DNA from: Filosporella fistucella
Lineage: Eukaryota > Ascomycota > Leotiomycetes > Helotiales
Assembly: GCA_030077755.1 (NCBI GenBank)
Contig: JAQJZZ010000017.1
Coordinates: forward strand, 310,001 to 374,000
Reading direction: 5' to 3'
Length of the DNA: 64,000 bases
Every line of letters starts with the position of its first letter. Within the stretch, counting starts at the first letter, position 1. Below the pieces are notes generated by a model. It did not search any database and was not told the origin of the DNA. It saw only the letters and a list, made by a program, of their open reading frames with translations. This document shows positions 12,423 through 15,472 of this stretch, piece by piece. The position numbers were made by a program, and so were the translations under genes.

Positions 12423-13612
12423 TGTTTTGAGGGGAGGCTGTTTGAAAAGTCAATCACTAGCTGGCTATAGAGGATGGGGGAATATACTCTTGGTTTTGAG
12501 GATGGGAATGAGGATTATGGGTTCGAGATCTGAATTTATCGGCTATGTCGTGAGCGAGGAGTATGAAGGCGCCGAATAGTTCGAAGCGGCACATTGGTTA
12601 CTGCATGGTATGTCATCTGGATGTGGTGGGGTGGAATTAAGATGTTTTCGTTGCTTCAAAGGTGTTTCTTGGAGAAAGGTCGCGTTTTGGTGAGGGGGAC
12701 GCGATTGGATCAGGTGATCTTGATTTTCGGACCGGGCCGTGAATATTTTGTTTGGTTTCTCCCCTTACTTTCAGGAGGTCTAGGCTATCAGGAGATTTCA
12801 AAAATGGAATTGAGTTAGCTACTTTCATACTGGACTGCAGGCTTGCTAGAAATCGTCAGCTTGAGGGTAAGAATGTAGTCGATCAGTCAGTCCCTATCCT
12901 CTCTTACCCCACTAACTATTAAGTATCCTATTATCCTTATAGCAAGATTAATGACCTCCTAGGAATCCTAAGTAGCATACCAAGTGAAGAAAAATAGAAG
13001 ATGCATAGGCCATATTATTTAGTAAGGTTATTCAAGAAATACTCATCTGATATTTAATCATATAATTTCAACCCTCTCTTCTCCCACACTACTGGGCCTG
13101 TGAAGTCTTCTTGTTACGATTATTAATTATAGTCTCAATAAGATTTAAGTCATGAATAAAAGCAGAAAGAGACACCTGAGATAATTTCCTAAATATTAAA
13201 AACCATCTAAGACACAATTGACTTAGACCCCTCTTCCTACTCCCTCGTCCTACTATACATACCTTCTTACTCTCCTTCCTCAAATATATTCTTCCTCAAT
13301 TATATACTAACCTTTTAACAAATCTTGATTTTGAAGCATACTACTACAAAAGTAAATCAAAGTAATATATGTCTATTAAAACCCTTCTAACACAAGCTAT
13401 TATAAACCTAAAGCAGAAACTACAATCGCAAAAGTTATAAAAATTCCCAGTAGGTTGCCTGTATCATGCCCAGCCCACACTCCCGCCCCACCAATCCACC
13501 AACCCACCCACCACACACACCAACCCCCTTCCTCCCTGCTCCCTGCTCCCATCTTTTGTCATATGAATATCCCCAAATAAGCCGCCGACCGTCAACCAAT
13601 CAAACAAAACAC
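12423..13612. other. spacer with AT-rich island upstream of tRNA-Pro
   Basis: From about 12890 to 13440 the sequence is strongly AT-rich and has no coding character, consistent with an old repeat degraded by repeat-induced point mutation (inference). From 13460 to 13612 it becomes C-rich and purine-poor, like a fungal RNA polymerase II promoter. No protein gene is supported. Confidence 0.45.
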
Positions 13613-13753
13613 GGATCAGTAAGCTCCTCTCCTTCCTCCATGCAAAAAACACACTAACAAACAACAGTTGGTCTAGAGGTATGATTCTCGCTTAGGGTTT
13701 ACCCTGAGTTATTAACTTGCGAGAGGTCCCGCGTTCGACTCGCGGATGATCCC
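13613..13753 (+). tRNA. tRNA-Pro(AGG) with two introns, one of mRNA type
   Basis: Exon 1 is only GGATCA (13613-13618). A 49-nt intervening sequence follows (13619-13667): it starts GTAAGC, contains CTAAC at 13654-13658 and ends ACAACAG. The rest of the tRNA starts at 13668. Joined, nucleotides 1-7 are GGATCAT and pair perfectly with 3' ATGATCC; the D, anticodon, variable and T parts follow in the standard fungal tRNA-Pro layout. The anticodon is AGG at 13694-13696. A second intron of 20 nt (about 13698-13717) sits at the canonical site after nucleotide 37 and contains CCCT, able to pair with the anticodon region. The spliced product is 72 nt with all stems paired; the T stem is CCGCG/CGCGG. 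Without removal of the first segment, the seven bases before the D arm form almost no acceptor pairs. The tRNA-Pro identity is firm; that the gene works, and how the first intron leaves, is inference. Confidence 0.85.
13619..13667 (+). other. spliceosomal-type intron inside tRNA-Pro acceptor stem
   Basis: It has GTAAG at the 5' end, CTAAC with its A 10 nt before the CAG end, and a length of 49 nt. These match the introns of protein genes in the same window (43-56 nt, e.g. in the SreA and OTU genes). The borders are unambiguous: the bases on the two sides differ, so sliding the cut by one base breaks either the acceptor helix or the GT...AG ends. Confidence 0.7.
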
Positions 13754-13767
13754 CATTAATATCTATC

Positions 13768-13773
13768 TTTTTT
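13768..13773 (+). terminator. RNA polymerase III T-run
   Basis: Six T residues begin 15 nt after the end of the tRNA-Pro, as expected for a polymerase III terminator. Its retention argues that the locus is, or recently was, transcribed by polymerase III. Confidence 0.6.
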
Positions 13774-15472
13774 GAACTTTTGTTTTGGACTTTTATTTTT
13801 CTTTGGATGGGGGTGTGGAAGCTTTTTGGGTAAGGGGGGTGGGAAGGGGAGAGGGAGTGGAAATGTTAGAGGAGGGTTGGGAGTACGAAATTGTTCTAGT
13901 TGTATTTGTACTTTCAGCAACGGCGGGAGTCGATAAAGAACAGTGGTATATATATTATAGACTTGCTATTACTCTATAGGTAATTACGAATAATTATGGA
14001 GAATATACTATTCTATATAGATTTGTTCATAGAATTCTCGAGTATATACAAGTAAGATAGAGAGATTTAAGCTTTTAGAAATAATTAATTGTCTTACCAC
14101 AATTCTATACTAGGCTTATAAACCAAAGAGTCTAAGATAATAGATTTGACGATCCTAATAATAATAAATTTGCGAACACTCGCTCGCTTGATTGATTGTA
14201 CTAGTACATAGAAATTTTGGGTTTTGGGGTTGGGTAACTGGATGGAGGATGGAGATGTGGAGATTTGAAATTGGAATTGGGAGTTGGTGAGTGTGGTGAG
14301 CGTGGCAAGAATGAGGGGTGTTGGATTTTATACTACGCAAAGGTACCTAGGTAACCTAGCAGGAGGAGTATTACCCTTCTTTGATCAATTAGTCTTGTAT
14401 TCATTCATTCATCCCTCCCCCTCCCCCTCTCCCCTCTCACACCTCCCTACCCTCCCCAAAACCTTTTCCATTTCAATCATTCCACCTTAACCCCCCTACC
14501 CCCGTCCAATTTTCCAGTTTCCAAAAACTCTATACACATCCCTCCTACTACACTTCACTTACCTCCTCCCTTCTCCCCTCTGCCCCTTCAAGCAGGTAGG
14601 TAGCTAAAAAATTTGACTTACTTCCACTCACGCCTAGTTCATGCAGTCAGGATCCCCCTATCTATTACACTAGCACTCACTCACTCTAGCAATTATTGGA
14701 GACAAGCCCTTTCAAAATACTTGGAATATGAATTCTTTCTTTAGTCTGCCTCCCTCTTTTTCCGTCCCTCTTTCCCCCTTCTTCCCTCTACCGCCTCACT
14801 CCCCTCCCCAAAGCCCCCACAAGTCTTCACAGCAAATACTAACTATCAACATCCCACTCACCTTATCTACCTGCTTACCTATATATCTCCCACCTTCCCG
14901 GCCTCCACGGCAGTGGCCCCCGGAGGGCCAGCGGAGCGTCACTCGCTCTCTATATTGGTAGATAAGTAAGTGCGGTAAGGCTGAGAGGATATGTTGGTAC
15001 AAGTATACAAGCAAGTAAGGGATGGGGAACTGATTCACGTAAAATTGGGTGGTGGGCAGGTAAGTGGGTAGGAGCAGAGACTGAGAAACATTGTAGAGCA
15101 TCATTATTACTATGCCCCTTCTTCCACCACTTCCCTCCTTCTCAATGGTATTTCGTCCTCCCTCTGTCCTTCATCTCTTTCGCCACTACTTTTCCCCTCC
15201 TTTCATACATAAATCAGCCAATCGGTTTCCCATCCCGTCATTCCCCCTCCAAGAAACCACAAGACTACATAAATAAAGATAAGAAGAAATTTTGATATAC
15301 TATCATCCATCATAGACCCACCGCAGATGAGCTCATCCGAGAGAGAAAAAAAATTCCAACCAACCAGCCACTCCATGCCAAATAATAGCCGATGAATACA
15401 TAAAAAAAAAGACGCCTCCACCCATCCCATCCCTCATCATCATCAACCGTGTTTCCATCACTTCCTGAAAAG
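13774..15472. other. low-complexity spacer
   Basis: AT-rich DNA at 13920-14160, then C/T-rich tracts (14400-14600, 14740-14900) and the presumed 3' region of the Zn2Cys6 gene. A short GC-rich patch lies near 14900-14940. No gene is supported. Confidence 0.45.

Follow-up and report, generated by a model that had tools for sequence, protein, structure and literature searches.

The canonical intron of a nuclear transfer RNA (tRNA) gene lies one base 3' of the anticodon, and the locus described here raises the question of whether such a gene can also be interrupted by an intron of the kind found in messenger RNA (mRNA) genes. The locus is a tRNA-Pro(AGG) gene at positions 13613 to 13753 of a stretch of 64,000 nucleotides (nt) from the helotialean fungus Filosporella fistucella (GenBank assembly GCA_030077755.1, contig JAQJZZ010000017.1, positions 310,001 to 374,000, forward strand), which we call the window. 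Our reading, to which we give a probability of about 0.88, is that the gene holds a canonical 20-nt intron together with a 49-nt U2-type spliceosomal intron at position 6/7 of the acceptor stem, and that no fewer than 15 further tRNA genes in the genome are built the same way. An earlier note, made from the letters of the window, had proposed a spliceosomal intron inside a tRNA gene; this is the best explanation of the sequence, and what has to be given up is the picture of an isolated event, since 16 genes are affected.

The anatomy of the window gene agrees with that note at each point. The contiguous gene had been described as having an unpairable 5' acceptor strand, and CAACAGT against ATGATCC indeed scores -1.4 in our cloverleaf scorer, where a perfect stem scores 7.0. 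Removal of positions 13619 to 13667 places GGATCAT opposite ATGATCC in seven Watson-Crick pairs and leaves the complete tRNA-Pro(AGG) that had been predicted, with a mature length of 72 nt (6+30+36), a cloverleaf score of 26.7 and 12/12 scored invariant features. The removed piece starts with GTAAG, has CTAAC 10 nt before its end and closes with CAG, as claimed, and the cut is unambiguous at base level: it cannot slide, because the exon ends in A and the intron in G, and the intron opens with G where the following exon opens with T. Its place in the acceptor stem is unlike the canonical site, and the gene carries the additional canonical intron (20 nt, 13698 to 13717, one base 3' of anticodon AGG) separately from the 49-nt insert. 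The note had also asked for scoring with and without the insert; ARAGORN called no tRNA on the unspliced gene and tRNA-Pro(agg) on the spliced one. At the gathering score Rfam matched nothing in the window, and at E up to 10 across 13400 to 13900 it returned just two matches, to unrelated families and far below the cut-off. The silence of both programs on the contiguous gene is consistent with an interruption and proves nothing.

Recurrence of the arrangement was assessed by a survey of this genome, which has 45.77 Mb in 19 contigs. Nuclear tRNA loci were taken from Rfam (42 matches outside the presumed mitochondrial contig C8) and from B-box patterns, which were added because the tRNA family search scored just 63 of its 1,940 candidates and overlooked genes with introns; all loci were parsed with the same simple cloverleaf scorer. 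Two B-box patterns supplied 73 and 36 distinct sites (hand count), all included, a third pattern supplied 30 of its 174 matches, and ten sites of a pattern built on split-gene junctions were left out of the survey. The outcome was 69 parsed nuclear tRNA genes without an mRNA-type insert and 16 split by a GT..branch..AG insert of 47-56 nt, every one of these inserts lying outside the anticodon loop, with one weaker seventeenth case besides. Before any removal, several of the loci that did not parse fell short in a single arm. The split genes represent tRNAs of 13 anticodons and about eleven intron places. The figure of 16 against 69 is a biased rate, since the junction pattern favours split genes and the searches for Pro and Met genes were aimed. 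An anticodon-loop intron is present in 49/69 of the uninterrupted genes, a share that seems high, and in 14/16 of the split ones.

The inserts were tested against control rules. The intron rule required a GT..G start, an hAG end, a length of 42-109 nt and a loose branch motif 6-40 nt before the end, and it was applied to the 714 of 784 scored T-loop-like sites that fell under 24.5. With 786 removals it restored full tRNAs at 13 sites, against one site (L139, which the real rule rescues too) from the 6,052 removals made by six control rules with other end letters. A narrower donor rule, mainly GTA/GTG, had missed L139 and L143; both were noticed by eye and then found by the wider rule. The 16 genes are the 13 rescued by the rule plus the two Met genes L108 and L194 and the Gln(TTG) gene L213. 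Met L108 had not entered the test, since it can be parsed without any cut if an anticodon intron of 75 nt and a long variable loop are assumed, and L213 came from a later batch of 20 loci and 53 sites run without control rules. Neither a split nor an unsplit tRNA came from the 16 remaining sites of two B-box patterns, and the four remaining junction-pattern sites included L213, clearly split, and the weaker split Arg(CCT) gene L214.

When 15 of the 16 split genes were given uncut to ARAGORN (L194 left out), 10 were not called, three were miscalled (L164, L108, L072) and two were called correctly; once cut, 12 of the same 15 were called as expected. Finders of tRNA genes therefore miss or mislabel genes of this kind, ARAGORN being silent on 10/15.

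The 16 inserts form a uniform set. All are 47-56 nt long in a search that allowed 42-109 nt, and in all the A of the nearest branch motif lies 9-13 nt before the 3' end, where the rule allowed 6-40 (L194 and L213 judged by eye). The branch motif is CTAAC in 12, TTAAC in two, CTGAC in one and TTAAT in one, with a second, more distant motif in L139 and L108; the 3' ends are CAG (7) and TAG (9). Set against the U2-type consensus (donor GTRNGT, branch site CTRAY a short way from the AG), GT and G at +5 occur in 16/16 as imposed by the search, and GTAAG in 13/16; the rule imposed solely GT, +5 G, AG and the loose branch motif. At 47-56 nt the introns are too short for a group I or group II catalytic core of hundreds of nucleotides. 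Where two genes share an intron place, the splice signals are kept and the interiors have an identity of 0.43 (Met pair), 0.52 (Lys pair) and 0.57 (Asp pair), close to what 105 pairs among 15 introns gave (median 0.46, best 0.64). The earlier note had thought a recent gain possible for the window intron; the Met, Lys and Asp introns are unlikely to be recent, because they occupy the same place in both copies and their interiors are of low identity. No near-identical introns were found when the 15 were compared with one another (no genome-wide search for copies was made), and recent copying from one element is for that reason without support.

Table. Features of the window gene (window positions) and the sixteen split tRNA genes; intron places in the split genes were counted by eye.
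Feature	Position	Strand	Remark
TATA-like upstream element AAATAAG	13575..13581	+	best motif site starts 13576, 37 nt 5' of the 5' exon
5' exon, tRNA nucleotides 1-6, GGATCA	13613..13618	+	
mRNA-type intron, 49 nt, 5' GTAAGC, 3' CAG	13619..13667	+	excision restores full tRNA
Branch-site motif CTAAC	13654..13658	+	presumed branch A 13657, 10 nt from intron end
Second exon, nucleotides 7-37	13668..13697	+	anticodon AGG 13694-13696
A box, presumed extent	about 13669..13679		
Ordinary anticodon-loop tRNA intron, 20 nt	13698..13717	+	one base 3' of anticodon; ARAGORN i(37,20)
Third exon, nucleotides 38-73	13718..13753	+	acceptor 3' strand ATGATCC 13746-13752
B box, presumed extent	about 13732..13742		
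T6 run, Pol III terminator-like	13768..13773	+	14 nt past tRNA 3' end
Arg-TCG (L107)			mRNA-type intron in acceptor, 3/4
Pro-AGG, window gene			mRNA-type intron in acceptor, 6/7
Lys-CTT, two genes (L136, L138)			mRNA-type intron at 8/9
Gly-GCC (L148)			mRNA-type intron at 12/13
Arg-CCG			mRNA-type intron at 13/14
Arg-ACG			mRNA-type intron at 13/14
Val-CAC			mRNA-type intron in D loop
Ser-TGA			mRNA-type intron after D stem
Met-CAT, two genes (L108, L194)			mRNA-type intron in variable loop
Pro-CGG	C14:1967468		56-nt insert GTAAGC..TTAAC..TTAG in variable loop, plus anticodon intron
Gly-CCC			mRNA-type intron in T stem, 5' strand
Gln-TTG (L213)			mRNA-type intron in T stem, 3' strand
Asp-GTC, two genes (one is L047)			mRNA-type intron at T stem end, 3' strand

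These signals agree with those of mRNA introns in the same genome, as had been claimed for the protein genes of the window, and the tRNA introns are tighter in length. By eye, one intron of a transcription-factor gene in the window reads GTGAGT..CTGAC..CAG. Elsewhere in the genome, 11 of 12 fetched loci of Ras-family genes were used and 15 exon junctions tried; a frame-keeping GT-AG option exists in 11 and none in four, the top option has a branch motif 9-15 nt from the AG in 9/11, and lengths run from 46 to 109 nt. A U6 small nuclear RNA (snRNA) gene (L074, G000:C7:2968184-2968282, minus strand), whose exons we take to be those of U6, contains three mRNA-type inserts of 49, 54 and 51 nt (GTAAGT..CTAAC..TTTAG, GTATGA..CTAAC..AAAAG and GTAATT..CTAAT..TATAG). 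L075 (G000:C6:601060-601162) is U6-like too, but divergent and without an insert; it contains the word ACAGAGA, reaches 44 bits, which equals the family cut-off, and may be a second U6 gene or a pseudogene.

For transcription, we learned an upstream motif from the 69 uninterrupted tRNA genes (consensus AATAAGGCCC; best sites -58 to -12, median -31) and compared, in the seven genes whose intron lies no further 3' than 13/14, the 5' exon with the pseudo 5' end, that is, the end adjoining the A box. Within -50 to -18, an interval of our own choosing, the TATA-like motif scores higher from the 5' exon in 7/7 genes, and in the window gene it reaches 12.0 bits from the 5' exon against 6.0 at best from the pseudo 5' end. 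This supports, more weakly than the anatomy supports the intron itself, a promoter placed ahead of the 5' exon. At the other end, a run of at least four T lies within 0-70 nt after the 3' end in 15/15 genes tested, and the longest T run inside the intron of the same 15 genes is 2-4. Besides the TATA-like element, words resembling CATCCAAT were seen by eye a short way 5' of the tRNA, both in split genes and in uninterrupted ones (for example L076, L078, L082, L136, L138 and L148).

Taken together, these data suggest a route of maturation for the window gene. Transcription would most likely start just 5' of the 5' exon, set by the TATA-like element at about -37, and end at the T run, and one RNA polymerase III (Pol III) transcript would then hold both introns. 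The spliceosome would excise the 49-nt piece via the CTAAC branch point and join GGATCA to TTGG; the joined exons would let the acceptor stem form, as needed for processing by RNase P and RNase Z, and the 20-nt anticodon intron would be removed by the tRNA endonuclease and ligase.

Several observations weigh against this interpretation. The survey is incomplete as well as biased, and an intact tRNA-Pro(AGG) gene exists. Three donors depart from GTAAG (L127 GTACGT, L139 GTCAGT, L143 GTTCGT), and ARAGORN gives L136 and L138 (both Arg(tct)) and L108 (Ile(gat)) another anticodon even when cut. The Arg(TCG) gene L107 is the weakest of the 16, with two G-U pairs and scores of 24.3 unspliced and 27.9 spliced, and it and Asp L047 are the two called correctly by ARAGORN without any cut. 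Over the whole 60 nt upstream, the pseudo 5' end scores higher in 3/7 genes (L136, L138, L127), so that promoter placement is moderately supported; the motif is weak in these three (1.8-4.0 bits) and is widely placed in intact genes. The A box, at the extent we assume for it, is interrupted by the intron in five genes (Lys twice, Gly-GCC, Arg-CCG, Arg-ACG), an arrangement with which the recruitment of Pol III would have to cope. The seventeenth case, L214 (G000:C15:599260-599660, minus strand), which we kept outside the 16, appears to be interrupted 3' of the T stem by an insert reading GTGAGT..TTCAG; its restored acceptor contains three G-U pairs and it scores 27.1 cut against 25.1 uncut, the uncut form passing the threshold too.

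We also considered whether the split genes are dead copies, tRNA genes inactivated by intron-like insertions, which we judge quite unlikely. Several intact tRNA-Pro(AGG) genes elsewhere, together with an absence of spliced reads, had been named in the earlier note as a sign of this, and one intact gene was found at C4:701780 in a search for other tRNA-Pro genes, so the window copy taken alone could be dispensable; uninterrupted genes of the same anticodon were likewise found for Lys-CTT, Gly-GCC, Asp-GTC, Arg-ACG and Arg-TCG. For the group the argument fails, because both elongator tRNA-Met genes found are split. A D arm-to-anticodon pattern with three mismatches allowed gave two such genes in the genome, interrupted at the same place, and their acceptors differ (GACTTTG/CAAGGTC and GTCTTCG/CGAGGAC) with each still paired. 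Moreover, with both introns out, Lys L136 and L138 are identical over the whole tRNA to the intact L094 and L095, the cut Gly(GCC) L148 is identical to four intact genes, and the two cut Asp genes differ by one base from the intact L067; exact sister sequence after removal is unlike what a dead insertion would be expected to give. Nor would dead copies sit well with sixteen inserts of one size range and signal set, or with the Met, Lys and Asp pairs, in which the interiors have diverged and the splice signals and place have been kept. Chance, meaning the 3' part of a tRNA that lacks a 5' acceptor and has a coincidental complement upstream, can draw on the fact that just six bases are exonic and that any 150 nt contain many GT..AG pairs. 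We regard its probability as negligible, given that an intron-shaped removal with seven standard pairs arose just once when the 150 nt 5' of the window gene were shuffled 200,000 times in dinucleotide blocks (last three bases kept), that 13 sites were rescued by the intron rule against one by the controls, and that 16 genes are involved.

Two further explanations accept the introns and change the machinery. Archaeal tRNA introns occur at many positions, and non-canonical introns excised by a broadly specific tRNA endonuclease, like those of archaea or Cyanidioschyzon, would fit with the anticodon-loop intron found in 14 of the 16 split genes. A simple four-pair check at the junctions for the central helix of a bulge-helix-bulge gave 1/4 pairs in the window gene and 19/60 over 15 genes with G-U counted (best 3/4, in L107; L213 left out), against 22.5/60 expected by arithmetic under equal base use. 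GT, branch motif and AG are common to all the introns and have, to our knowledge, no role in endonuclease cutting, and we hold this explanation to be very improbable. The other possibility is that the introns are truly spliceosomal and are carried by capped precursors made by RNA polymerase II (Pol II), from which the tRNA would be freed once ordinary pre-mRNA splicing has taken place. The interrupted A boxes of the five genes speak for it, and TATA-like elements serve Pol II too; the T runs after all 15 tested genes, the introns devoid of long T runs and the presence before split genes of a motif learned from uninterrupted tRNA genes speak against it. We therefore consider Pol II precursors unlikely, if less so than the other alternatives, and favour spliceosomal introns in Pol III transcripts.

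If spliceosomal introns in Pol III transcripts are indeed what these genes carry, the spliceosome is probably an obligatory tRNA-maturation enzyme in this fungus, since the Met genes are split in 2/2 cases and Arg-CCG, Gly-CCC, Ser-TGA and Gln-TTG were found solely as split genes in this survey. All cytosolic translation would then depend on the splicing of Pol III pre-tRNAs, most of them by two unrelated splicing machines. Judged from the sequence, internal AUG codons would be unreadable without removal of such introns, unless a more divergent third Met gene exists. This would amount to a second route of tRNA splicing that ties translation directly to spliceosome activity, and it opens to study the handling of Pol III transcripts by the spliceosome, the way in which Pol III finds genes with a split A box, and the gain of introns by non-coding genes. 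The intact sister genes provide matched natural controls, with exons and positions known to the base.

Ribosomal DNA of ascomycetes carries spliceosomal introns, which resemble those described here as mRNA-type introns in a non-coding RNA gene and differ in belonging to a large RNA transcribed by RNA polymerase I. Closer parallels come from small structured RNAs. As the earlier note had pointed out, and as PMC10484740 describes, U6 snRNA genes have mRNA-type introns in fission yeast and are reported with them in other fungi, and the U6 gene of this genome has three; U6 is likewise a small structured Pol III RNA with GT-AG introns that is matured by splicing (PMC10484740), whereas the tRNA introns are spread over the eleven or so places and 13 anticodons given above. 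A 2017 survey states that, among small structured RNAs, frequent interruption by an intron is known for U3 and U6 alone (PMC5832005). The spliceosomal introns of fungal U3 small nucleolar RNA genes resemble ours in that they interrupt a small structured RNA and carry canonical signals, GTRWGT / RCTRAC / YAG; their mean length is 92 nt and they are concentrated in one stem, unlike the scattered introns of 47-56 nt found here (PMC5832005). Canonical nuclear tRNA introns adjoin the anticodon and are cut by an endonuclease independently of the spliceosome, according to a 2026 review (PMC13149111). They share 14 of the 16 split genes with the new introns, which differ from them in position and in having no junction helix. 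Disrupted or permuted tRNA genes with unusual break points are described for archaea and red algae in PMC3978253; these rest on bulge-helix-bulge cutting, and the introns here on splice-site and branch signals. No earlier report of spliceosomal introns in tRNA was found among the titles and abstract openings listed from the open-licence literature, and a report elsewhere is possible.

Other loci met during the survey deserve brief mention. Two scans of viral contigs for split-gene junctions gave six and zero matches, the six resembling tRNA in pattern only (by eye). Five loci, L111 (C14:2021380), L147 (C14:2021758), L124 (C6:261753), L137 (C6:262000) and L146 (C14:1835108), form a tRNA-like family with a D arm like TAGCTTAATGGTAAAGC; in four of the five the anticodon region appears by eye to hold a long insert for which one GT-AG removal does not account, and the family possibly consists of tRNA-derived elements or of genes with large introns. 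L112 (C7:717180), L135 (C11:1057750) and L149 (C15:1882499) are related to one another, tRNA-like and below the scorer threshold; their loop reads TTGTGAA (His-type anticodon) and is followed in each by a long insert, similar among the three. The Val(CAC)-like locus L062/L110 (C3:530610), included in the 69, has a good acceptor and two T-stem mismatches and is possibly a decaying copy. Two open reading frames of the window most likely place the genome among helotialean ascomycetes, with no near-identical protein among the matches listed: the one for a gamma-tubulin-complex protein shows 78-79% identity to its counterparts in Acephala, Cudoniella, Phialocephala and Mollisia, and for a transcription-factor reading frame the best matches that carry a name come from Mollisiaceae (71%) and Cadophora (72%).
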